In this document: positions 2,851-27,372 of the stretch, piece by piece
Position numbering within the stretch: position 1 is the stretch's first letter
How the letters are laid out: every line of letters begins with the position of its first letter
NCBI RefSeq assembly: GCF_000003605.2
Contig: NW_003119278.1
Location: 1 to 27,372 of the forward strand
Source: Saccoglossus kowalevskii
Lineage: Eukaryota > Hemichordata > Enteropneusta > Harrimaniidae
DNA: 27,372 nucleotides
Direction: 5' to 3'
Translations under genes and position numbers: made by a program
Notes under the pieces: model-generated
What the model was told of the DNA's origin: nothing
What the model saw: only the letters and a program-made list of their open reading frames with translations
Databases searched by the model: none

Positions 2851-3545
2851 TTGGAAAGTGAATCGTGAAATAAACATGGCAACAAAGGTCAAAACTTTGT
2901 TAAGCTAATGGCGTTCGCAATTTGTTTTTTTGAATTTCCTCGGTTATAGCTACATGAATATGGACCAAAACGTTATTGGCTATTTTTATTTTTTGTTTGA
3001 TTACCTAATGCTTTTACGTTCATGTGCTGCAAGTTACAGTGCACATACAAATGTACCTAAGCGGCTGCCCCTCAGCAAATGATTTAGCCCAGGCATTTTC
3101 CGTGTAAAAATCGCAAAACTCTCCATTTTTACGCTGTCTTGGAAGTCCGAATTACTAAACGAAGTACAGGCCAACGAAACTGAAATATCCTAGAACCAAC
3201 ACATACCATAAATCATATCTCAAAAGTGAATATTCATGGTGTATTTTAAGTCTAATCAGACCGGAAGTTGGAATTTTGTTAATACTCTAAATATCCAAAT
3301 ATATTTTAGTATAAGGTAGTAAAGATACAGTACACATTCGGTGTGGTTATTTTACAATAAAAGTACCAGAACCACAACCTTTTGGCTTTAATCAGTGCTT
3401 ATTGTGCATTTATAGATACTCACAGTGATATGAAATTAAAATATGTTATAGATTGGTGTGCTTGGAGGCTATAATTATGAATATATAATAAAAACTCACC
3501 AATTACGCTAACTGCTGGAAAATCAGGAGGTGGGTCACAGAATCC
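2851..3545 (+). repeat. ~690-bp direct repeat, first copy (A1)
   Basis: It runs from TTGGAAAGTGAATCGTG to GGTGGGTCACAGAATCC and recurs at 4770-5675. Copy B has a single version at 23460-24155, whose left flank matches A1 and right flank matches the second copy. No coding capacity is seen. Confidence 0.9.
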
Positions 3546-4769: not shown

Positions 4770-5675
4770 TTGGAAAGTGAATCGTGAAATAAACATGGCA
4801 ACAAAGGTCAAAACTTTGTTAAGCTAATGGCGTTCGCAATTTGTTTTGTTTTTTGAATTTCCTCGGTGATAGCTACGTGAATATGGACCAAAACGTTATT
4901 GGCTAGATTCCAGGGACGACAGTGACGACCACCAAAAGGTACTTGAAAGCAAATAAATATGTGAAGCATGAAAAACTGTTTTGAGTCGTAGCGTAAAATA
5001 GGCAACTAAACCATCGTTGACTTTTGAGGGAATGGAAATCAGTCTATTTGAGGGTGTCAAAATAAGCGAGGGAGCAAATCGTTTTTATGCTAGAACGTAC
5101 TTTAGTACAACATTATTTTTTGTTTGATTACCTAACGCTTTTAGGTTCATGTGCTGCAAGTTACAGTGTACATACAAGCGTACCTAAGCGGCTGCCCCTC
5201 AGCAAATGACTTAGCCCAGGCATTTTCCGTGTCAAAATCGCAAATCCCTCCATTTTTACGCTGTCTTGGAAGTCCGAATTACTAAACGAAGTACGGCCAA
5301 CGAAACTGAAATATCCAAGAACCAGCACATACCATAAATAATATCTCAAAAGTGAATATTCGTGGTGTATTGTAAATCTAATCTGACCGGTAGTTGGAAT
5401 TTTGTTAATACTCTAAATATCTAAATATATGTTAGTATAAGGTAGTAAAGATATAGTACACATTCGGTGTGGTTATTTTACAATAAAAGTACCAGAACCA
5501 CAACCTTTTGGCTTTAATCAGTGCTTATTGTGCATTTATAGATACTCACAGTGATATGAAATTAAAATATGTTATAGATTGGTGTGCTTGAAGGCTATAA
5601 TTATGAATATATTTATAATAAAAACTCACCAATTACGATAACTGCTGGAAAATCAGGAGGTGGGTCACAGAATCC
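4770..5675 (+). repeat. ~690-bp direct repeat, second copy (A2) with a ~207-bp insertion
   Basis: It has the same ends as 2851-3545. It differs by an insertion at about 4906-5112 and by scattered substitutions. The single copy B version shares some variants with A1 and others with A2. Confidence 0.9.
4906..5112. other. ~207-bp insertion within A2
   Basis: This stretch interrupts the shared text GTTATTGGCTA and TATTTTTTGTTTG. It is absent from A1 and from copy B. I saw no clear terminal inverted repeats or target-site duplication, and a few T residues present in A1 are missing at the junction. Origin unknown. Confidence 0.7.
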
Positions 5676-7663: not shown

Positions 7664-7868
7664 TGTAATTATTTTTATTTAAAAAAATGCTCAACCGAAT
7701 ATTATCCATATTGACTGTGCAAATGTTATCACGCTCTTCGATATTACACATTTAAAATACATATTCTATGCAATAATAAAGAACTGCCAAATATTCTCTA
7801 AATAGTTTGTAGTCTTGATAATTAATTATCTTGAATATATTGTTTCATAAACAGTATATCTATTAGTT

Positions 7869-7914
7869 TTTATTCAATTAAACACATCTGACTGATTTAT
7901 GTCTTTGCTTTATT
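7869..7914 (-). terminator. Poly(A) signals of the OLD-like gene, copy A
   Basis: On the minus strand there is AATAAA at 7914-7909, about 18 bases past the stop codon (7934-7932), and a second AATAAA at 7874-7869. Both are preserved in copy B. They suggest a very short 3' UTR, so the foldback repeat at 6866-7663 would lie just beyond the mRNA end. Confidence 0.55.
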
Positions 7915-7931
7915 TTGCCATATACATATTT

Positions 7932-10061
7932 TTATATTCTAGACGCCTCATTTGACAAGAACATAATGAATCTGTTTACTTCAATGTTTTCCATTGAGCT
8001 GGATAAAATATTCGTCAATATGCCATCCAGCTCATCAGCTGAGTATTCTACAATGCTTTTTTTCAAAGGACCCTTTCTCTTTTTCCCCTTGTGTTCTAGA
8101 ACAGTTGGGTCTAAAACAAAGAAATTTTCTATAGAACCATCACTCCATGAATATATATGATGTTTCTCAAAAAAGTCAATCACATCTTTATCTGTTGTAC
8201 AAGTTTGCTCTAGAGATTTCTTCTCAGTGGCATTCAGACTAGAAGCTGCTGCAGTTTTCGTCAGTTTTTCTCCTAATGTTGATATAACAGCATCACGGTC
8301 ACATACAACTGCTTTAGCAATCCCCAAGTCATCACACATCTGACTTCCCCGGCTAATATTGAACTTGCCACCCAGAGGTAGAATAGTTGCTCGCTTCATC
8401 AAATCTAGAGCTCTCTCAAAGTGATGAAGCCCTATACTGCAATTCCCTATATGCAGTATATTTCGTTTCGTCAAACCTTCCTTTAATACTATCACCATGG
8501 ATTCGAGAACACTGATGTCATCTGGACCTTCAACCCATAGGACAAATGAGGAAAAAAATAGTTCTCGAACTCTTGGGTCTACGACAAATCGCATTTCTTT
8601 GGGTGCGTATTCACGTACACGTTTGACTGAGCAGCTCCCAGACTGAGGGTCACGCTTGAACATAAAGACATTGGAGAAATTTCTTGTAGTAACCATACAA
8701 GGTGAATGGGTTATGGCTATTATGCACTTTTTAGATCCTGCTACTTCCATGGCCAGGAGTTCTGCGAATTTCTTTATTCTAATTGGGTGCATACACATGT
8801 CAGGGTCATCAAAAATAATGGTTTGCACATTGATTTGTGCTAACATTGCAGCAGCTTCATAAGTTGATGCATCACCAGATGGAAGTTGCTTTATGTTGAA
8901 TGTCTTTCCCGTGTTCCCATCTTCGCACTTAGCACTATCTACTTCATTTTTTACACTTACAGTATTTGTTTTAGTATCTCTTGTTGCTGTTAATTTGGTG
9001 GTCTCCAATCTGTCTTCATTAGTAGCGATATTACTAGTATACTCTACTCTAAACTCACTGTTTGCAGATTCTGCAAAACTATCATTAATGTCAATATGTT
9101 CTAAATCCAGATATTTTAATAATCTTTCCAGCTTCTTACGCTTTATAGCTCCTCTTTTTATTTTCTGTTGGATGTACCGTAAACAATCTGTCCTGGTTCC
9201 AACATTAGGAGCTGTCATTCCAGATCCATCAGTGGATGTTCTGGATAGTACTTTGTCTTGTAGGAACTTCACAACCATTGGTATAAACTCTTTTTGACCT
9301 TCCACCTTAACTCCATGCGTTATACATTCTTTAACCATATTCAACCTGTTATATGGATAGTTTACATCTCTTTCATCACATTTCGTAGTACATTTCATTT
9401 CAGGAATTATAATGTTTTCTGGCACTCTTAATAAAGTACTCAGAGGCTCATTTGTAACTTCCGTTGCGGTTTTGTTATGTAGCACAGCAGGTAACAATGG
9501 ATGTGCTTGAGTTGCCCTAGTTGGTGTTTCGATGAATGAAGCATTTTGGGGAACTTCAACATAAGTAACAGCATTTGTTCCTGCTATCAGAATTGAAAAT
9601 TTCCCGGACTTGTTAGTTGACGATTGATAAATAAAACCTGTACACAAATTATATGATATGCCATCTTTTTTATGGCTCTGGTTGGCATTGCCAACACTTT
9701 TGCCATCTTTACTCTCTTCATGGTCACTGGCATTGTCGCCATCGTTACCATCATCTTCGTCAACATCACCATGGGTATCAACTCGCTGACAGTGTTCATA
9801 AAGTTTTCTCCACTCTTTTTGACTGATATCATAATCACAAAGCATATATGCATCACGTTGTCGATTACACACATTAATATTTTTTATTCTTTTTCTTGGT
9901 GAATAGTCTAGGGAAGCATATTCAATCAACTCAACAAGGCTACTCTTACCACTTCCATTTTCACCAACAAAAAGATGAATTCCATCTTGCTGCAAGCAGA
10001 ACTTCAGATCTTGAGGGTTGTTGAAATTTACATAATTGTCAATTGCTACACGACTCAACAT
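7932..10061 (-). CDS. OLD-family ATPase-TOPRIM nuclease-like protein, copy A (complete, 709 aa)
   Basis: Seen: one open frame of 709 codons. An N-terminal ABC-type ATPase has a Walker A motif GENGSGKS at residues 33-40, a signature-like LPSGD at 393-397, Walker B IIFDDPD with D418/D419, and an H-loop ITHSP with H452. A TOPRIM domain follows: VEGPDD with E511, a conserved-looking LPLGGK at 561-566, then CDRD with D588 and D590, and SIENF at 643-647. Family knowledge: this order is that of OLD proteins, including P2 Old and GajA of Gabija, in which the ATPase gates a metal-dependent DNA nuclease. Residues ~60-390 form a long, unrecognised insert with an acidic stretch at 95-121. A basic patch GKKRKGPLKK at 659-668 resembles a nuclear localisation signal. 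The frame stays open 13 codons upstream, but those codons read a splice-acceptor pyrimidine tract, so M at 10061 is chosen; it has A at -3. The position normally Glu after the Walker B Asp is Asp (D419). No GajB-like helicase is nearby. The in-vivo role is unknown. Confidence 0.82.
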   Translation of the reverse strand: MLSRVAIDNYVNFNNPQDLKFCLQQDGIHLFVGENGSGKSSLVELIEYASLDYSPRKRIKNINVCNRQRDAYMLCDYDISQKEWRKLYEHCQRVDTHGDVDEDDGNDGDNASDHEESKDGKSVGNANQSHKKDGISYNLCTGFIYQSSTNKSGKFSILIAGTNAVTYVEVPQNASFIETPTRATQAHPLLPAVLHNKTATEVTNEPLSTLLRVPENIIIPEMKCTTKCDERDVNYPYNRLNMVKECITHGVKVEGQKEFIPMVVKFLQDKVLSRTSTDGSGMTAPNVGTRTDCLRYIQQKIKRGAIKRKKLERLLKYLDLEHIDINDSFAESANSEFRVEYTSNIATNEDRLETTKLTATRDTKTNTVSVKNEVDSAKCEDGNTGKTFNIKQLPSGDASTYEAAAMLAQINVQTIIFDDPDMCMHPIRIKKFAELLAMEVAGSKKCIIAITHSPCMVTTRNFSNVFMFKRDPQSGSCSVKRVREYAPKEMRFVVDPRVRELFFSSFVLWVEGPDDISVLESMVIVLKEGLTKRNILHIGNCSIGLHHFERALDLMKRATILPLGGKFNISRGSQMCDDLGIAKAVVCDRDAVISTLGEKLTKTAAASSLNATEKKSLEQTCTTDKDVIDFFEKHHIYSWSDGSIENFFVLDPTVLEHKGKKRKGPLKKSIVEYSADELDGILTNILSSSMENIEVNRFIMFLSNEASRI

Positions 10062-10090
10062 GTTCACTGGAACAACAACAAAAAAAATAA
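10062..10090 (-). promoter_or_regulatory. Probable 3' splice acceptor just upstream of the OLD-like start codon
   Basis: Read on the minus strand, a T-rich tract (runs of T, then GTTGTTGTT) ends in CCAG. The AG occupies 10068-10067 and the ATG begins five bases later at 10061. This fits the consensus for a metazoan acceptor. It implies an upstream exon, probably non-coding, at higher coordinates and an intron covering at least 10067-10090. I could not identify a convincing matching donor by eye in 10100-10700. The acceptor decides the start: the upstream in-frame ATG at 10100 would encode a hydrophobic tail made of intron sequence. Confidence 0.68.
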
Positions 10091-10100
10091 TGTAAATCAT

Positions 10101-10439: not shown

Positions 10440-11260
10440 AATACAGCCAATAAAAACTTTATCGGTCACGTGACTTTTTCTGTTATGTTCATTTTAAAAA
10501 ATGCTGACTCAGCATTGTTCTCATTGAAATCTCTTCTTCTCTTGAACAACATGGCCGGTCGCTATGAAACTTGTCCATTAATTTGGTCTCCATCTTCATT
10601 TAGTGAAAACCGAAAGCCGCCATTCTTACCATTTTGTGGCGGCCTAGAAGTTGTGTTGCACCTTTAGCTCATGCCTATTCTTAATGACGTAGAAGAACAT
10701 TAGAGGTCACGTGACGTTTGCCGCTATTTTTTTGAAAACGAGGCTAAATCCTTCAAAAAACTTCTTCTCATAAAGTTCCAGGCAGAATGACATGAAATTT
10801 GGTTGCTATTTTGTATTTTTAACAAAAATGACCAAAAGTTTGCGCATTTCTTTCACATTGGTGCTTCAACCAATTAACTGCCGATTTTGTATATAACGTG
10901 TCTGGTCATAGATGCATATGAGAAAAATAATATATTTTCGATCAGTCACATGGTTTGGCCGCCATCTTGGAATTTAGGCAAAATTGACCAAAAGTTTAGG
11001 CATCTGTTTCTCCAATATGCATCCGCCCATCAACTAAATAAATATGTATACGACATGGCTGGTCATAGCTTCATATGAGTAATAATACAATTTCGATCGT
11101 TCACGTGGTGTGGCCGCCATCTTGGATTTTGTGAAAACAGGAAATGGGCAATTACATGTGTTGTATTGGTACGATTGGTCCGATTTCCATCTGAATGGCA
11201 CATGGCTAGGTCCTGTGGCTGGGCGCCCATGGGGTGGGGGTTTCTAACCTCATTAATATG
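10440..11260 (-). repeat. ~155-bp unit array in minus orientation
   Basis: Reversed forms of the CAAGATGGCGGCC…CACGTGAC unit recur near 10460, 10700, 10950 and 11100, with the shared internal word GACCAAAAGTTT reading on the plus strand. The end near 11113-11200 matches, in reverse complement, 19660-19745, which includes TTTTCACAAAATCCAAGATG. So this array is an inverted counterpart of 19640-20720. Confidence 0.75.
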
Positions 11261-16202: not shown

Positions 16203-16830
16203 CACATGGTATTGGCGATCCGCTCCACTAGGATTGCCCCTCAAATCATTTTTGTGTGATTTTCAGTGTTTTCACGTATTAGTTCTTCTGTGATTTTTTT
16301 AGCTTGGCCGATTTCGCTCAAACATGGCTAGTGGGTCACACCTTCACCCTAGTTATTAGGAAAAATCTGCATGTTGGTCCATCGTTGCCGAAGCAACAGT
16401 ATGTATCTCCTACAAATTTAGGATACAACACCTCAGACATAGCTCACTGTACTCGGCTTGAGTGGGCACAATGATACTATTTGAATTTTTGATATCTTTT
16501 TTCATCAATGAGAAAGTTGACCCCAAATTTAGAGTAACTGTTCACCAGGTATGGCTTTTTAACTAACTCTTCTGTGATTTTTTTGTTGGCTTGGCTGATT
16601 TTGTTCATACTTGACAGGTAGGTAGTACCATCACTAATTGGAAAAACAATCCTGACCCACCACTACCATGGCAACAGCCAAAATCTGTTTTTTTTAATAC
16701 TTTTGTCCCAAATTTATTACTTCCTACCAGTCTTGTAATAGCAGTGTTCAAATGATCATGCCTTTCATTTTGGCTACGTTGCGCACTGGTAAGATATCAC
16801 CGGCGCTGACATTGTTACACTGTATCAATA
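16203..16830 (-). repeat. Diverged inverted copy of the ~300-bp unit array
   Basis: It starts ATTGGCGATCCGCTC and TTTTGTGTGATTTTC, the reverse complement of the end of the 1228-1890 array. Words such as CTTCTGTGATTTTTTT then TTGGC recur at 16284 and 16568. It ends with a counterpart of GTGCAACTCAGCC near 16773-16800. Similarity is clear but lower than between copies A and B. Confidence 0.75.
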
Positions 16831-19639
16831 GGGATTTCAGGGGGAAATTATACACATATCATAGAGTAGTTTACATGGTGGCATTGGATAGATCTCTACT
16901 AGAGCAATACAATGACCTTGTTTGATGAAAATTAGGGTAACCGTTCTCGAGATATGGTACTTTGTAGCTTCAATCAGCATTTCCTAATTTTGGACAAAGG
17001 ATGTCAACAAAGCACTACTGAATAGTAAAGACAACGGCACCATTTTGGATGAATAAGCACTAATTATTTAATTGGAGCTGAATTTAAACTGCCATATCTT
17101 TCCCCTTGTTTATTGAATTTTCACCAAATTTTCAACAAATGAACTTTATATCAATGTTTATCTTATGTCATTAGAGGGCAATATATAGACCATCTGTTAC
17201 CATGGAAACAGGCATATTCAAATTTCATTTTAAATCATCTGTCAGTGTCAATAAAGATAAACAAGTTTTACTTTCGTTTATGTTGCCTTCGTTTTTATTC
17301 CTATACAATTGCATTGAAAACGCCCTCATCGACCGGCTATGCGTTCTACCAATTCGCTTTACTTATTTTTACGCTATAATAATACTTATGAAACAAAAAG
17401 CATTGACACGAATAAACAAATTCAAGATATAACATTATAGCATAATGTACAGCTTATTTTTTGGCAACTTAGAAAAGAAGTATGCATGGAAAACATAACT
17501 GGGAGCTGCCCGGAAAATTTTAAAAATCTCTGTGCCTGATCGATCTATTTTTATGCCAAAATAACCAATGAGTCATCTCAATTCTACAGCTGTGAATGCT
17601 CTAACTTGTACAATTCGTTTTAATTTGCATTCACGCTGCATTTTCGACATGTTAAAAACAAAATAAACGTATTTTGCCGTATATAAAATTGAAGGAGTGA
17701 AACATTCTCTTCGTACATGAAAATGGAGTCCATGTAAACAAAGTACCGGGTTGGAGGTACCACTTTTAAAATGGGTTTGTCGCACTCTTTAAATTGATGT
17801 CACACTCACAAAACATAGATTTTTGTCTATTGAAATATATATTTTTTTCAAATTATGAGTGATAGATAAGCCAGAAAGTTGTAAGTCGATACGAAAATTG
17901 CCGTTTAACTTTTGTTTTTATTGCCGTTTCGTACGGTCCATTCCAACGCGGGGAAAACGCAGCAAACTTCTCTGGATTTAGAACACCGGGTTAAATTTGG
18001 AGGTCACGCTCGCGTTCACGGCGCTTGCCAGGATGTTCAAATGTTTCAATTTTTATTCTCCCGTGTTGTCAAAACGGCTACTCGCAATGGGTTGCAATTT
18101 TCAGAAAATTTCCAAAAGATATAGAGCTAGAATTCATGGTAATTTTATTTTTTTGGTTTTAGTTTTGCTCACGTATTTTGTAGTTTTTGAAAGGGTAGCT
18201 GCCCACACCCACTTCTTCCGTTGTCATTAACCAAGTGACTGAAATCCTCAATATTAGCTGTACACCACATGGAATACTACGATTGGGAGAACTTGATGTA
18301 TGTTGAATGAGCTTTATCATAGACCATCAACATGAAAGTACCAGGAGGTTTCTGCTGGCGAAGTTGCGGCGTTACGCAGTTCCAAATAAAGATACCAACG
18401 CCAAATGAGCGACATTTTTACCGGAAATCAAGATTCATTCAATCCACGGCTAACAAGCAACATCACAAGCGAAGTTGTAGCGTGCAGCTCATCAACGACC
18501 GCTGTCGACGAAAGTCATTCCGTCAGTAGAGTACTGCAGTTGTGACGGCATGTTTGCCAATGCACAATTCTGTGGAGGAACGTTTAACTTAATGTAAACT
18601 ACGTATGACTGATTCGAAACATTCTATCTAGATCGGACGGTGCCCTATCGTGCCAACCCTTCACCATTGTATTCAAACGAACCACGTGATGTGCTGTTAC
18701 ATTCTCCTTCAAACCCGGGATTCAACCATTAGGGGCGTTTTAATAAAAAAAAACATCGCAAATCATGCAAATATAGCATTTTTAAACAAGTATACTAAAA
18801 AAGTAATGCTCAGCGATGCAAAAGAAGGATAGATTTTACTTTTCAGTATACACATCTCTGTTTATACAATCCTTCACATATTCTACTCCCAATTATTCCT
18901 GCGTAAATTGGAATAGCCTCTTTCCATGTTGACATTCTGAGTAAAATCACGTGATAGGCCGTTACAATTGGCTGTTACATACTCTTTCGCCGGTCTGGAA
19001 AATGTGTTTAATTAGCTCTCATTCAAGCGACAAAGCATATTTCCCAGTGGGAGTGAACCTAGTTCGAATCTGCCATTAAAATATAGGGGTCTTTTCAGCA
19101 AAAAACGAATAACCCTTGAGTGCACACAATACACTGAATTTCGGAACAAATCTTGCATTAGTTACAGCAGCAGAATACCACAGAAATATCAGACGAAACA
19201 TGGAAACACTATATATTCTATTTTGGCCTGAACCCTCTCTATTGCAATTCCAGGAATTACCCCCATATGTGCAACCATTTTCCACCTTGGTATCACCCAA
19301 CCCTGAAAACAAATTCTTAATAACACGCTGAAGCGTTTGGTGAAAATAGAACTCGGGTCAATGATGTCATATCTATTTTCATTTCCAACAACACTGGGCT
19401 CAGCACATTCCAAGGTATTTTACAATCACCATGCCACTGTCTGGGACATACCATTATGCCACAGGGGAAATAGAATGTATGTATCTCAAATTCTGCTGAC
19501 AACACAGTCCAGTGTATCAACAGTCTAAAGGTTTCATCTTCCTATCTGCAACAGTGCTTGATTCATAACGGCTATGCATATAATGAGAATATTATTTAAT
19601 TAGAATGTGTGTCATCCGGGTGAAAGATTGTATCTCACA
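16831..19639. other. No recognisable gene
   Basis: 16831-17200 has repeat-like wording (CGAGATATGG, GTTACCATGGAAACA) close to the neighbouring arrays. 17900-18560 is somewhat richer in GC and CG dinucleotides, with unrecognised open frames (17912-18124, 18332-18529). It could include an exon or promoter of a host gene, but nothing identifies one. 18600-19640 shows no clear feature. Confidence 0.4.
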
Positions 19640-20720
19640 AGTAGAATGCACATACTAAATTTTAGCCAAATCGGACAAAAATAACACATGTAATCGCACA
19701 ATTCACGTTTTCACAAAATCCAAGATGGCAGCCAAACCATGTGACTGATTAAATTTATAACATTGTTCTTACAACAAGCTGTGGCCATTCATGTTATATA
19801 CAAAATCACCAGTTGTTTGGTTGAAGCACCAATGAGAAACAAATGCCCAAACTTTTGGTCATTTTGTTAATAATCAAAGATAGCGGCCAACCTTGTGACT
19901 CATAATTTTTTTTAAAACAATTTCATATCAAGCTATGGTTAAACATGTTATAATCAAAATATCAAGTGCATTGGTTAGAGCATTCAAGGGAAACAAATGT
20001 CCAAACTTTTGGTCATTTTTACATTTAATTCAAGATGGCGGTCAAACCACGTGACTGATCACAATTATATTATTTTTCTCATATGAAGCTATGACCAGAC
20101 ATGTTATATGCCAAATACCCAGTTGATCGGTTGAAGCACATTTAAGAAACAAAGGTCCAAACTTTTGGTAAATTTTGTCTAAAATCCAAGATGGCGACCA
20201 AACCACATGACTGATCTGAATTCTTTTTTAAATGTCCAAAAGAGTTCAATATAGAGATGCAATGTAGCACATTAGAAGATGATCACATAATTGTTGCTTA
20301 AGTAAAAACACTACTTCCTGTTTATAAGAAATCTAAAATGGCAACCAAACCATGTGACCAATCATAAACAAAAATTCAAACTAATGTACTTCATATATAG
20401 AAGCTAAATACCATATATGAAAGCATTTTGCTTGGTGGTTCTGAAGAAGAAGATTTTCAAGCGATTTTATGAGTAAAAACATGGCGAAAAAAGTTCATGT
20501 GACCATTTAGCCATACAATGTGACCAATCATAACAAATTTTTCAAACTTGAATGTGCTGCATGTACAGATGCTAAATACCATACAGTATTTGAGAGAATT
20601 TTGCCTAGTGGTACTGTAGAAGATTTTCAAGTAGTTTTTGCCGTTTTGGAGGAAAAAAAACATGGCGGGAAAAGTCACGTGACCGCTAAAGCTTTTATTG
20701 CTGATATCTAATACACATGA
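19640..20720 (+). repeat. ~155-bp unit array in plus orientation, leading into copy B
   Basis: Units are anchored on CAAGATGGCGGCC-like words at about 19722, 19876, 20032, 20188, 20334, 20478 and 20660, each followed by CATGTGAC or CACGTGAC and by CCAAACTTTTGGT further on. The last units are shared with the left edge of copy A. The minus-oriented counterpart is at 10440-11260. Confidence 0.85.
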
Positions 20721-21554
20721 GTTTTACCATGTGCCATAACAAAATCTGACTGCATATACCCTCAGAAAGTGGTCAAACAGCCACTTCCTTTCAATTTCAA
20801 TTATATATGGCTGCTGAACCGATTGACCAATCACAATTGGTAAAAATCAAATGTTGATACAATAATATAAACTAGTACACAGGTGAATTAAACAATGTGT
20901 AGCATTAGCTCAAAACATTAATAACACATGTCACCCAAATTTATCAGCTTTATTCGGTTTATTACACCACTTCACATGTTTTAACTTTTTGTTCTCATAG
21001 ACATTCTTGACCGACTGTTCCTGTATCCATGTGCATTTATGTAGCTAGGTATTGTCCGCCCACCATCTTGATATAAAATCAGACCGTGACTGTCTCGAGT
21101 TTCAACATTTGAATGATTGTAATTCACTCATATATCATTCTATACTTATAAATTAAAAGCAAATACCAATTGTTTATCATACCAAGGTGGGTGTTATCCA
21201 ATAAAATGATGACAACTGATAACATTGTGATGCAATATGGACAATGATCCATAAATACACATCACAGTATCAGACACACATACAATCAAGAAGTGATATA
21301 AGACGTTGCAAAGTTCAGTTAATATAACATTGACATGACATGCATAAGCACATGTCCATTACATATTCCGAAAAACCATATCTCGATAACCAAACTAGGT
21401 AAATACATTGAACCAACTGCATTTCGACCTCATGGTACAGGACATTCAAACTACCCCGATGGCAATCCAGTGACCTTATTATCCAGTGACCCTCTATCTG
21501 ACTGTGACTGTGATTGAATGCAGGATTTACAGTTCATTCAAGTTGCGTTGGAAT

Positions 21555-22493
21555 TACAATCATACATTTTAACAATGTGGGCACCAGTGATCTCTCGTCG
21601 GTGTGCAACTCAGCCAAAATAAAAAGCTTGATCATTTGAACACAGCTGTTACTTGTAGAAGGTAATATATTTGGAGCGAAAGTATTCAGAAATCAGTTTT
21701 TTGGCTGTTGCCATTACAGCAGCGGGCCAGGAATTGTTTCCCCGATTAGTAATGATATGATCTGCATGCCAAGTATGTACAATATCGGCCTCGCAAAATA
21801 AAACACAGAAGAGTTAAAAAGGCGTTACTGGTGAAAAGTTGCTCCATCTTTGAGGCCAAATTTCTCTGTAATGAAAAAAGACCGCCAAAAAATAATAACT
21901 TTGTGCCCACATTCAAGCTGAGTAGAATTAGCTATGTCCAAGATTTTAAGTCCAAGAATTGTAGGGTGAGATACATTTGGCGCGTAGCTATTCAGTTTTT
22001 TGGCAATGGTGGGCCCGAAATTGTTTTTCTGTTTTTGTCACCCAACTAGATTGACGGTATGACCTGCCTGCCAAGTATAAACAAAATCGGCTCTACCAAA
22101 AAAATCACGGAAGAGTTAAAATGTCGTTACTGGTGAAAATTTACCTCAACTTTGAGTTCAAAATCTCGGTAATGAAAAAAGATATCAGAAAATCAATAGT
22201 AACTTTGTGTCCACACCCAAGCTGAGTAAAATGAGCTATGTCTGGGGTGTTTAGCCCTAGAATTGTAGCAGAGGATACAATTGCCGCAAAGCTATGTTGT
22301 GTCTTTTTTCAGATTTTACAACCTTAACTAGAGCGAAAGTGTGACCTGCCTGCCAAGTTTGAGAGAAATCGCCCAAGCAAAAAAAATCACAGAAAAATTA
22401 ATACAGAAGACACTGGAAATCGCACACACACAGACAGACACACAAAAGTGATTTTAAGAGCAACCCTAGCAGAGCGGATCGCCAATAAATCTG
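21555..22493 (+). repeat. Tandem array of ~290-bp units, copy B (one unit more than A)
   Basis: This is the counterpart of 1228-1890. It carries an additional 282-bp unit, roughly 22060-22341, bounded by GACCTGCCTGCCAAGT at both ends, which is the expected footprint of unequal recombination between units. Confidence 0.85.
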
Positions 22494-23459
22494 AAAATAT
22501 ACACATTTTATTATATAACTATTAGCTACACGATGAGTGGCTATCGCGATGAGTGGCTTTTGGGGCGAGTGACAGAAACTTGCTTTTTCATCAGAGTTGA
22601 GAATTTAATGTTGTGTCATTAACAACCGGTGTTAATCTGGGAATGGCATGTATAAATAAACGTAGACTCATGATTGTAACATGATCATGCAAAATATTGT
22701 TTATTAATTATAGAATGATCTGTATTTAAATATTAATACATTAACATGCATGATACAAAGTATATGAGTAATGTAATTATATGCATGTGATTCTGAGTCC
22801 CATGTTGACTATGTCCCCGACCATTTATTTATTTACTTGTCAGTGCCTAACTGGTATATACAAAATGCGACCAGGAAAATGTCAGAATAGTAAAATACTA
22901 AAGCTAAAAGTCAGTTGCCTATCACAATCTGCCGTCCATCGCCATCCACAGCAGTGATCACATAGAAATTGAGAATGGCGAGTGTGGACAGATTGCATCA
23001 AACTGAACACTAAATACAGCTATCCCGGCCAGTAATCGAAAATTCAATCTTTATGAGTGATGTAAATGGTATTTCCATCTATATGATTCTATTCCCGCTA
23101 TTCTTAAAACATTCAAGTGTCTTTACGTGCAGTGACATGAACTTTGCTACAATGTAAGACGCGCTGAACACCAAGTTCATTTCGAGTAGAGCACATCAAA
23201 ATTCTTGAATAGAACATTTTCTATATTAACCAAAACAGTGGATTAGATTCCTGGCTAACAATAAACTCGAAACAAAAAAAAAACGTTCGATTGAAATGAC
23301 CTGCGTTCTTGAAAATCTAGTCTTATCGTCCTTGCGTTTCCAAGTGAAAAAAGGTTGAAGTCAAAAACGACAGATTTTCACCCAATCTGCTATGAATTTT
23401 TGGTTATGTCATTAATTCAGCCCAGCGGTTAGATTTATTAGCGACCGGAAAATTAAGAT

Positions 23460-24155
23460 TTGGAAAGTGAATCGTGAAATAAACATGGCAACAAAGGTCA
23501 AAACTTTGTTAAGCTAATGGCGTTCGCAATTTGGTTTTTTGAATTTCCTCGGTGATAGCTACATGAATATGGACCAAAACGTTATTGGCTATTTTTATTT
23601 TTTGTTTGATTACCTAACGCTTTTAGGTTCATGTGCTGCAAGTTACAGTGCACATACAAATGTACCTAAGCGGCTGCCCCTGAGCAAATGATTTAGTCCA
23701 GGCATTTTCCGTGTCAAAATCGCAAAACTCTCCATTTTTACGCTGTCTTGGAAGTCCGAATTACTAAACGAAGTACAGGCCAGCGAAACTGAAATATCCA
23801 AGAACCAGCACATACCATAAATCATATCTCAATAGTGAATATTCTTGGTGTGTTTTAAATCTAATCAGACCGGAAGTTGGAATTTTGTTAATACTCGAAA
23901 TATCCAAATATATTTTAGTATAAGGTAGTAAAGATATAGTACACATTCTCTGTGGTTATTTTACAATAAAAGTACCAGAACCACAACCTTTTGGCTTTAA
24001 TCAGTGCTTATTGTGCATTTATAGATACTCACAGTGATATGAAATTAAAATATGTTATAGATTGGTGTGCTTGAAGGCTATAATTATGAATATTTTTATA
24101 ATAAAAACTCACCAATTACGATAACTGCTGGAAAATCTGGAGGTGGGTCACAGAA
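23460..24155 (+). repeat. Single copy B version of the ~690-bp repeat
   Basis: Its left flank is that of A1 (2851) and its right flank that of A2 (5675). It lacks the 207-bp insertion of A2. Confidence 0.9.
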
Positions 24156-24159
24156 TCGT

Positions 24160-24325
24160 CACATCGTATAAAGGTGTGTTCACATCGTATAAAGTTGTGT
24201 TCACATCATATAAAGGTGTGTTCACATCGTATAAAGGTATGTTCACATCATATAAAGGTGTGTTCACATTGTATAAAGAAAGGTATGTTCGCGTCGTATA
24301 AAGGCAAGTTGGCATGATATAATGG
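24160..24325 (+). repeat. 21-bp minisatellite, copy B (six clear units plus two degenerate)
   Basis: The unit is the same as at 5677-5800, with two more units. On the minus strand the 21-bp period gives an open frame with repeated LYDVNTP, which is a by-product of the repeat. Confidence 0.92.
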
Positions 24326-24545
24326 TATACTCTTTTCATATAACGGGAATAGTGGATCATCTATACACTTAGAACAGCTGTGGCTTTCCATATTGTTTCC
24401 TCTTGTGTTTCTAATACGTTGAGCTTAATTATTGTGCTTAAGATTGGACGAAAGTAGGTCGCTTTTTCTGTTTTGTCTTGCACAAGAAACCAGGGCGAAT
24501 ATTCACTTGTGAAATAACTCCTTAAAGCTCGACAGCAAAACGATC

Positions 24546-24619
24546 GGAACGGCATGTATAAATAAAAGTAGACTCATGATTGTAACATGATCATGCAAAA
24601 TATTGTTTATTAATTATAG
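24546..24619 (+). repeat. 74-bp templated segment specific to copy B
   Basis: It matches the region beginning GGCATGTATAAATAAACGTA at 2042 (and 22645 in copy B) with about two mismatches, up to TTAATTATAGA. It replaces the 6020-6242 sequence of copy A. Confidence 0.85.
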
Positions 24620-25077
24620 AGGCCGTGTCACGAAATTTTGCATAGGTTGGGGTGTAGATCTGCTCACCATCCGCCGAAGGCGTGACCTCACCAGGGGATC
24701 CGAGGGCATGTACCCCCGTAAAAGACCCTCTGAAACGCTATTCCCTGCATTTTTTTTGGGGGGGGGGCTGATTTTGCTGACACACCTTGATGATCACACA
24801 GCAGGCATGTACACATCAAATAGTAATAGCACATGTGAGGGTAATATCACGATTTGCCCAATGGTGGTTATGACCATAATACTGATGATGCCAGAGCCGA
24901 AGGCCACCCACCATGCACAATTACATCTACCATACATCACTCACACCCGCTCTCCCACGAAATAACAACACTTATATTTGAAGTATGCAATATTTTATTT
25001 CACTGACACATTACTCAATAACATACATACATTGTTAGCTGAAAAAAACTAAATACACAGTAAATGTTACTTCCGGC

Positions 25078-25103
25078 CACGGTTACTCTTTTTAGTAACC
25101 GTG
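25078..25103. other. Perfect 10-bp stem hairpin, copy B
   Basis: Identical to 6670-6695. Confidence 0.6.
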
Positions 25104-25273
25104 TTTCAGCAATGTGAATCACTAATCTTATCGAGTATAAATTTATTGAAATGAATTGAAAAAATTCTCAAACGCAAGTTATTTCACCACTCGCCAGATA
25201 AAAATGTCAAAACTCAGAGGTTCAGAAATGTTTCGAAAATAAAATGAAAGTAAATTGTCACATACAAATATTA

Positions 25274-26072
25274 TTGGCTGCAAACATAACAATTTCAAGG
25301 AAATAATACAAAGCTTTTTAATTAATTTATGTATAATAGTGCCTGGATGCAGACTTGTCAGTTCATCGTGATATAAATAAAGTCATATAATATTAGTCCT
25401 GTCAAGATTCAATACATTAAAAGAGGATCACAAAATTCAAAATGGAGTGCATAATAGCCGCTTCAGAATTGAGGTCATATTCACAACATATTTGTGTGCA
25501 AGAATCTTTCGGACAAAAAAATGCAACAAAATACATATGTAGTTCGATCTAGTTTCTTGCTATTTAGACGACTAGGCATCCAATTATTCATGAGCTTGTT
25601 TGAGTAAATTTCTGAACATTATCTTCTCAAACTTTCATGCTACGACATATATTCTGCTTCATTTCAATCACAAATAAGACACAAGTTGTTAGTACTGTGA
25701 AGGAGAATATGCTACAGACATGTGAACACCCATTAGTGGAAGCTGTGCATATATACAGAAAATGTTGGTTAATAAATGAGCAGCGTGACCACACAGTACA
25801 TATTGGTAGTTAGTGTTGTTGTTGTTATAAGGTTGGGTGTAAACAAGACTTGTTTAATTATTGGGCTAATTATTTGTGATAAGCTATTGCCTACTATATT
25901 TATTTGATTTCCTTTATTTTATATGAAAACAATCCAACACACATTTGGGAAAAAAAGAAGGAATTCAACCATACCATTTAATAACAAAAAAAAAATACTT
26001 GCATCTGCATCCAGGCACTATTCATATAAAATAATTAAAAAAGTTTGAAATTGCTATGTTCGCAGCCAAAAT
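25274..26072. repeat. Foldback element, copy B
   Basis: This is the counterpart of 6866-7663, with arms at 25274-25353 and 26004-26072 and only a few substitutions. Confidence 0.75.
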
Positions 26073-26273
26073 TGTAATTATTTTTATTTATAAAAATGCT
26101 CAACCGAATATTATCCATATTGACTGTGCAAATGTTATCACGCTCTTCGATATTACACATTTAAAATACATATTCCATGCAATAATAAAGAACTGCCAAA
26201 TATTCTCTAAATAGTTTGTAGTCTTGATAATTATCTTGAATATATTGTTTCATAAACAGTATATCTATTAGTT

Positions 26274-26319
26274 TTTATTCAATTAAACACATCTGACTGA
26301 TTTATGTCTTTGCTTTATT
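26274..26319 (-). terminator. Poly(A) signals of the OLD-like gene, copy B
   Basis: These are the same two AATAAA hexamers on the minus strand as in copy A, at 26319-26314 and about 26279-26274, following the stop codon at 26339-26337. Confidence 0.5.
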
Positions 26320-26336
26320 TTGCCATATACATATTT

Positions 26337-27371
26337 TTATATTCTAGACGCCTCATTTGACAAGAACATAATGAATCTGTTTACTTCAATGTTTTCCATT
26401 GAGCTGGATAAAATATTCGTCAATATGCCATCCAGCTCATCAGCTGAGTATTCTACAATGCGTTTTTTCAAAGGACCCCTTCTCCTTTTCCCCTTGTGTC
26501 CTAGAACAGTTGGGTCTAAAGCAATGAAATTTTCTATAGAACCATCACTCCATGAATATATATGATGTTTCTCAAAAAAGTGAATCACCTCTTCATCTGT
26601 TGTACAAGTTTGCTCTAGAGATTTCTTCTCAGTGGCATTCAGACTAGAAGCTGCTGCAGTTTTCGTCAGTTTTTCTCCTAATGTTGATATAACAGCATCA
26701 CGGTCACATACAACTGCTTTAGCAATCCCCAAGTCATCACACATCTGACTTCCCCGGCTAATATTGAACTTGCCACCCAGAGGTAGAATAGTTGCTCGCT
26801 TCATCAAATCTAGAGCTCTCTCAAAGTGATGAAGCCCTATACTGCAATTCCCTATATGCAGTATATTTCGTTTCGTCAAACCTTCCTCTAATACTATCAC
26901 CATGGATTCGAGAACACTGATGTCATCTGGACCTTCAACCCATAGGACAAATGAGGAAAAAAATATTTCTCGAACTCTTGGGTCTACGACAAATCGCATT
27001 TCTTTGGGTGCGTATTCACGTACATGTTTGACTGAGCAGCTCCCAGACTGAGGGTCACGCTTGAACATAAAGACATTGGAGAAATTTCTTGTAGTAACCA
27101 TACAAGGTGAATGGGTTATGGCTATTATGCACTTTTTAGATCCTGCTACTTCCATGGCCAGGAGTTCTGCGAATTTCTTTATTCTAATTGGGTGCATACA
27201 CATGTCAGGGTCATCAAAAATAATGGTTTGCACATTGATTTGTGCTAACATTGCAGCAGCTTCATAAGTTGATGCATCACCAGATGGAAGTTGCTTTATG
27301 TTGAATGTCTTTCCCGTTTTCCCATCTTCGCACATAGCACTATCTACTTCATTTTTTACACTTACAGTATT
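26337..27371 (-). CDS. OLD-family ATPase-TOPRIM nuclease-like protein, copy B (cut by window end)
   Basis: This is the second copy of the gene at 7932-10061. The visible 344 codons correspond to copy A residues 366-709, from just before the signature motif to the stop. The reading frame runs open off the right edge, so the first methionine inside the window (27335) is not the start; it is a Lys-to-Met replacement at residue 378. Walker B (IIFDDPD), the H-loop, the TOPRIM Glu (VEGPDD) and CDRD are all intact, so nothing visible marks it as a pseudogene. It differs from copy A at 14 nucleotides and all 14 change the residue (copy A residues 378, 383, 481, 501, 527, 625, 626, 629, 648, 649, 656, 661, 663 and 669). 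The basic patch stays basic (Lys to Arg twice, Ser to Arg). The ATPase N-terminus is outside the window. Confidence 0.8.
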   Translation of the reverse strand, partial: NTVSVKNEVDSAMCEDGKTGKTFNIKQLPSGDASTYEAAAMLAQINVQTIIFDDPDMCMHPIRIKKFAELLAMEVAGSKKCIIAITHSPCMVTTRNFSNVFMFKRDPQSGSCSVKHVREYAPKEMRFVVDPRVREIFFSSFVLWVEGPDDISVLESMVIVLEEGLTKRNILHIGNCSIGLHHFERALDLMKRATILPLGGKFNISRGSQMCDDLGIAKAVVCDRDAVISTLGEKLTKTAAASSLNATEKKSLEQTCTTDEEVIHFFEKHHIYSWSDGSIENFIALDPTVLGHKGKRRRGPLKKRIVEYSADELDGILTNILSSSMENIEVNRFIMFLSNEASRI

Positions 27372-27372
27372 T

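Follow-up and report, generated by a model that had tools for sequence, protein, structure and literature searches.

How could an animal have come to carry a gene of the OLD family, and what might such a gene be doing there? In bacteria, OLD proteins have been described as effectors or sensors of phage defence; homologues were reported absent from eukaryotes in a 2019 survey, which used a KEGG search with 833 hits (PMC6755086), and a 2023 review of the family does not contain the word “eukaryote” (PMC10568477). The stretch of DNA considered here (the window, 27,372 bases in all) was placed by a search of its own genome at positions 1-27372 of contig C1202 in a 572-Mb assembly of 4,830 contigs, and its minus strand holds, at 7932-10061, an intact open reading frame (ORF) of 709 codons plus stop that runs from ATG to TAA with no internal stop. 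We argue that this is almost certainly an OLD-family ABC-ATPase/TOPRIM gene of an animal. We call the gene copy 1 after the tandem arrangement described below, and its product is best read as a lone, Class-1-like OLD with a disordered insertion, a patch resembling a nuclear localization signal (NLS), and an Asp where the Walker B Glu should be.

What makes it an OLD? The original prediction, made by a model that read only the letters, had assigned the gene to this family and proposed three profiles that should recognize it, of which OLD-like_TOPRIM (PF20469; 27.5 bits against a cut-off of 23.2, the best stretch being residues 502-590) and AAA_21 (35.2 bits, cut-off 27) do so, while AAA_15 just misses (31.9 bits against 32.1); AAA_23 also matches (35.1 bits, cut-off 27). 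Among the best 25 of 102 PADLOC families, ATPase-Toprim_I-B (3.1e-16) and Old (3.3e-15) lead, with the best GajA model behind at 4.7e-11, and phrog_4747, a PHROG of unknown function, matches residues 3-611 at 1.6e-17. The two window copies, in effect one sequence, were also made into a profile and compared with one of 16 prokaryote and phage OLD-type proteins; the match reached 99.3% probability (E 1.1e-20) and covers residues 386-593, beginning at the ABC signature and ending at the DxD. With the catalytic residues and the fold, these matches bear the assignment out.

The catalytic residues can be followed one by one. All of the motifs that had been listed for the protein are where they were said to be: GENGSGKS at residue 33, the Walker B IIFDDP at 415, the H-loop THSP at 451, VEGPDD at 510 (with E511), LPLGGK at 561, CDRD at 587 (with D588 and D590), and SIENF at 643. 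The metal-binding and catalytic residues of P2 Old and Thermus OLD are named in PMC7049728 and PMC6755086, and alignment carries the key OLD positions to K39, D418, H425, H452, E511, D515, D588, D590, S643, and E645; K39 falls on the Walker A Lys, and D418, H425, and H452 fall on D299, H306, and H332 of P2 Old. The TOPRIM Glu, Gly, and DxD are present (E511, G565, D588, and D590), and so is a second metal site, made of D515 (the acid at +4 of the Glu), S643, and E645, with low model confidence at 643-645; the counterparts of this last motif in the Ts OLD enzyme are S478 and E480, according to PMC7049728. A recount over 58 relatives, some of them near-copies of one another, finds Lys at the K39 position in 56, His at both H425 and H452 in every one, and Glu at E645 in 52; Glu, Asp, and Asp occupy the E511, D588, and D590 columns in 41, the other 17 having no TOPRIM domain or a different residue. 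In a 32-row alignment, 13 columns are invariant, K39, H425, H452, E511, D588, and D590 among them. There is a single departure from the ATPase set, the replacement of the Walker B Glu, found in all 58 relatives, by Asp419 in both copies, which hints at slow ATP hydrolysis and hence at a long-lived ATP state. The catalytic Lys/Arg known as K550 in P2 and K562 in Bp is without a certain counterpart; several Lys lie at 658-668.

The fold tells the same story. Structure prediction and search recover the overall OLD fold, and the comparison with Old and GajA proposed at the outset gave Thermus scotoductus OLD (6p74) as the top solved structure in Foldseek, with GajA also in the match list and an ATPase head that resembles those of SMC and Rad50 besides those of OLD. 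The best 50 rows of a second search, VIA-align, hold no GajA, which says nothing against GajA. Confidence (predicted local distance difference test, pLDDT) is mostly below 50 across an insertion at residues about 81-390, and this insertion, acidic in part, and the KGKKRKGPLKK patch look like animal additions to the sequence.

Is the gene really an animal's? Contamination of the assembly by bacterial DNA would be the dullest answer, and it has in its favour that the other OLD genes known are those of prokaryotes and their viruses. We consider it very unlikely because the assembly is large, a second contig is collinear with the window, the flanking DNA is repeated around the genome, and coding density is low. 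Contig C787 (14,144 bases) follows window positions 16401-19922, some 3.5 kb of flank, at 99.1% identity. Outside the duplication, 800 bases of the flank gave 49 matches, several of them more than 900 kb into their contigs (40 of 149 candidates were scored). The 27 kb of the window are AT-rich and full of repeats, with a single long ORF that is complete, and no close relative turned up in pattern scans of viral and genome contigs or in tblastn searches of phages and plasmids. C787 is probably the other haplotype of this locus. It is 98.4-98.6% identical to parts of the right duplication unit, and it carries an extra inner block (about 7762-9327), which is present in the left unit and missing from the right, so that it is more than a simple copy of the right unit; there might be a further tandem unit, but the matching flank favours an allele.

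Which animal, then? The mitochondrial contig of the assembly (C4830) encodes a COX1 in which TGA is read as Trp, and its ATA, AAA, and AGA codons were compared with mammalian chains rather than acorn-worm sequences. Eight of the 10 ATA codons of COX1 could be compared, and they face Ile five times, Val twice, Leu once, and Met never; nine AAA sites (one in COX1 and eight in ND1) face Lys eight times, Arg once, and Asn never; and the one AGA site compared, in ND1, faces Ser. Saccoglossus kowalevskii is listed with this combination (ATA=Ile, AAA=Lys, and AGA=Ser) in PMC3121625 and PMC2697986, where echinoderms have AAA=Asn, and because of this code, an acorn worm is the most likely host. On the same contig, as far as genes could be named by eye, COX1 lies on the strand opposite most of the other long genes seen. 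The animal context that had been proposed thus holds, resting on the assembly, the probable second haplotype, the flank repeats, and the mitochondrial code.

The gene is not alone. A protein search of the host genome finds three gene sequences: the complete copy 1, a copy 2 that is cut by the contig end, and the sequence in C787, whose 5' end is cut and whose frame is disrupted by a deletion that shifts it and by an in-frame stop. The duplication that had been suspected is indeed a tandem pair, to which we add that the C787 sequence, probably copy 2's other allele, is frame-broken; the locus may be polymorphic. The left unit holds one of its inner blocks twice, at 2986-3545 and at 5113-5675. 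The 300 bases upstream of copy 1 match only themselves in the host genome.

Over the 345 shared codons (7932-8966 against 26337-27371), copies 1 and 2 differ at 14, all of the changes being nonsynonymous and nine of them falling in residues 625-669. In simulation, the neutral mean is 3.1-3.9 synonymous changes of 14, and none at all has a probability of 0.01-0.03. The coding part has also diverged more than the 3' flank (14/1035, compared with 9/1679 in the flank; P 0.03). With all three sequences, 33 of 34 copy-specific changes in those codons are nonsynonymous, the broken C787 sequence accounting for 19 of these (its stop included) and for the one synonymous change. Either diversifying change or gene conversion by a copy that had diverged would fit this pattern, though its presence in the broken sequence counsels caution.

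Table 1. Features of the window, with coordinates, strand, and the basis on which each is called.
Feature	Position	Strand	Basis
OLD-family ATPase-TOPRIM gene, copy 1	7932..10061	-	open frame; Pfam, PADLOC, and hhalign matches
Walker A GENGSGKS, residues 33-40, Lys39	9942..9965	-	K39 invariant in 32-row alignment; Lys in 56/58 relatives
Acidic low-complexity stretch, residues 95-121	9699..9779	-	sequence; inside low-confidence insertion (about 81-390)
Walker B with D-loop (IIFDDPDMCMHP), residues 415-426; Asp419 in place of the catalytic Glu	8784..8819	-	Glu in 58/58 relatives
H-loop THSP, residues 451-454	8700..8711	-	H452 is His in 58/58 relatives
OLD-like TOPRIM domain, residues 502-590, with E511, D515, D588, D590	8292..8558	-	PF20469 and alignment columns
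C-terminal metal-B motif S643-x-E645 (SIENF)	8127..8135	-	alignment with P2 Old D541/E543; Glu in 52/58 relatives
Basic patch with an NLS-like pattern, KGKKRKGPLKK, residues 658-668	8058..8090	-	sequence; predicted only
Candidate splice acceptor, polypyrimidine tract and AG, TTTTTTTTGTTGTTGTTCCAG, 5 bases upstream of ATG	10067..10091	-	sequence pattern, candidate only
AATAAA poly(A) signals past copy 1 stop	7914-7909 and 7874-7869	-	sequence
Copy 2, last 344 codons and stop, cut by window/contig end	26337..27371	-	96% identical protein; OLD-like_TOPRIM 29.7 bits
AATAAA poly(A) signal past copy 2 stop	26314..26319	-	sequence
Left unit of tandem segmental duplication, in blocks, as far as contig shows	1..8967		92-99% identity
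Right unit of tandem segmental duplication	20329..27372		blocks of 92-99% identity

Of the rest of the window, there is less to say. The splice acceptor and poly(A) signals that had been noticed by eye are there, the former as an acceptor-like candidate (Table 1); the LINEs (long interspersed nuclear elements) could not be confirmed, none of the ten other ORFs scanned with Pfam, in a scan made without a dedicated repeat library, having reached a cut-off. No Rfam family and no tRNA was found in the window. An imperfect repeat of ~156 bases, with the words CCAAGATGGCGGCC and CACGTGAC, occurs at 19717-20216 and 10798-11176 in inverted relative orientation.

Where did the gene come from? Among the matches listed, the top ones are haloarchaeal (Halorubrum and Halolamina), at 26-28% identity over about 160-175 residues in the region from Walker B to TOPRIM, and a search of 392 genomes of the haloarchaeal phylum gave two matches below E 1e-9, both at 28%. 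The Halorubrum OLD-type gene (L001, 2775-4439) sits between pglZ and pglX in a BREX-5 plasmid locus. Scans with six exact 8-residue words, which detect close relatives only, gave four pattern matches in viral contigs and 28 in genome contigs, with no relative in either set. By tblastn, phages yielded only P2 Old (22%, two records of the same phage), and plasmids yielded five records at 25-26% (one at 24.5%); wider scans with alignments reached at least 16 viral and at least 45 genome loci. Six loci (L005, L010, L012, L017, L018, and L019) were dropped from the relatives, matching only at the Walker A end and being SbcC-like where read. In a phylogeny, one of the checks that had been suggested, the animal protein is without a partner: it has the longest branch (2.98) of 34 rows and joins none of the groups. 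Against eight profile groups, chosen by eye from motifs with 2-10 members each so that their ranking is a hint only, it scores 71.8 bits for LE_dxd, 63.5 for IENY_like, 43.6 for YEDxL, 43.3 for HPEN_noTOPRIM, 30.8 for DLEDEY, 19.7 for NFE, 18.1 for P2Old, and 8.6 for GajA_like. With no close relative found, prokaryotic or viral, the data support neither a recent donor nor vertical origin; a captured defence nuclease is possible.

What would such a protein do? Judging from known OLD structures, the insertion between the two ABC ATPase halves would hold two subunits together as a dimer, whose state would be set by the binding and slow hydrolysis of ATP, with Asp standing in for the Walker B Glu. 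The TOPRIM site (E511, D515, D588, D590, S643, and E645) would bind two Mg or Ca ions and nick or degrade nucleic acid, and the basic patch would direct the protein to the nucleus. Its most likely role would be that of a nuclease whose activity is gated and whose targets are foreign or abnormal DNA, such as that of viruses and transposons, and it could be either a domesticated prokaryotic defence enzyme or an old eukaryotic one that was retained. That the protein is an active metal-dependent nuclease is, we think, quite likely. The whole explanation, a lone nuclear OLD in an animal genome gating a nuclease against foreign or abnormal DNA, we favour by a modest degree; that its role is in defence rather than in housekeeping is a tentative suggestion that falls a little short of probable, and that the animal lineage keeps and diversifies a tandem nuclear OLD as a DNA-level effector against viruses or transposons is conceivable and rather doubtful.

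There are other ways to read the same gene. The original prediction called it Gabija-like, and if the protein were GajA, the nuclease of that Class 2 system, one could point to the matches with PADLOC GajA models, to the presence of GajA in the fold list, and to Bartonella GajA, which as a tblastn control finds both window copies (8e-9 and 2e-8). The Old and ATPase-Toprim_I-B models outscore it, however; a single tblastn query with the Bartonella GajB helicase finds no match (best E 0.21) in either C787 or the window; the GajA-like profile, built from two sequences, is the lowest of the eight; and the protein does not group with GajA in a tree where its placement is unsettled. We take the identity with GajA to be most improbable, and the Gabija label is not supported. 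It is unlikely, though less so by far, that a gene once transferred, or once part of a mobile element, is decaying here, with copy 1 open by chance and functionless. One of three gene sequences is frame-broken, and the near absence of synonymous changes among the copy-specific ones would mean that replacement sites are unprotected; against this, 709 codons are open, the tested catalytic columns are kept except for the conservative D419, and decay at the neutral rate should have made about a quarter of the changes synonymous, where the counts are 0 of 14 and 1 of 34.

A harder rival is housekeeping. A domesticated OLD might work in DNA repair, recombination, or the cell cycle, in the manner of RecF, Rad50, or Cran1, and this we regard as possible, if not what we would bet on. 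It draws on the likeness of the ATPase head to those of SMC and Rad50 and not to OLD alone, on the cell-cycle role of archaeal Cran1, and on a coral paper that files a transferred “ATP-dependent endonuclease” under DNA repair (PMC4878875). On the other hand, a tandem family that is small, whose copies change and of which one allele is broken, does not look like a conserved housekeeping gene. The gated-nuclease reading has its own difficulties, and they should be set out plainly. Asp419 may make ATP hydrolysis very slow. The P2 Old-type profile is the second lowest of the eight, and the tree joins the animal protein with no known class. PF20469, searched across all 572 Mb, finds no match at E 0.001, and because of this, the TOPRIM domain must be called divergent. 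The broken probable allele of copy 2 may mean that the second gene is dispensable, and the excess of nonsynonymous changes is drawn from 14 differences (P about 0.01-0.03) and appears in the broken allele too. Moreover, the TOPRIM domain of the Class 1 OLD E. coli YbjD is dispensable for its anti-phage phenotype (PMC13261556), and in Cran1, it is the ATPase activity and not the nuclease activity that matters (PMC12796447).

Why care about one gene in a worm? CD-NTases, STING, and viperin are bacterial-type immunity enzymes found in animals (PMC10732462), and an intact deuterostome OLD, if true, would add another to animal genomes; the gene could be put to the test as a candidate for defence or repair at the level of DNA, in a group next to the chordates. 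Among the titles and abstracts listed in searches of open papers, none concerns an animal OLD protein, and the sole lead was the coral work, which lists Seriatopora_21195, an “ATP-dependent endonuclease,” among transfers to the anthozoan ancestor, with a dinoflagellate source (eLife 2016, PMC4878875) and is possibly an earlier sighting of an animal OLD. Uncharacterised animal entries may also sit in databases.

How, finally, does the encoded protein compare with what is known? Seriatopora_21195 bears a name used for OLD proteins and has an animal host, and we liken it by description only, from a source that gives dinoflagellates as its origin. GajA shares the two-domain plan; the animal gene differs in lacking a GajB match nearby and in its weakest profile score. 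From the OLD effector of retron Eco8 (Class 3), it stands far off, under the NCBIfam cut-off at 40.5 bits against 250, and no retron parts were seen in the Rfam scan and ORF list of the window, from which a search aimed at reverse transcriptases was absent. The haloarchaeal OLD-type proteins have the IEN[FY] motif in common with it, whereas the Halorubrum gene is embedded among BREX-5 genes, and the tree does not group the animal protein with them. No helicase, reverse transcriptase, or split subunit lies beside the gene as another complete long ORF in the 27 kb, where a short-exon or distant partner would escape notice. We use the label Class-1-like because of this single-gene layout and the best fold match. 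With the Class 1 OLDs (Thermus scotoductus OLD 6p74, P2 Old, and E. coli YbjD), it shares an ABC ATPase with an inserted middle region, the TOPRIM Glu, the acid at +4, the DxD, the C-terminal [S/T/D]-x-E, and the single gene; it is ~22% identical to P2 Old and longer (709 against 586 amino acids, the 6p74 chain having 528), and it differs from all of them in its disordered acidic insertion, its basic patch, its Walker B Asp, and its animal host.
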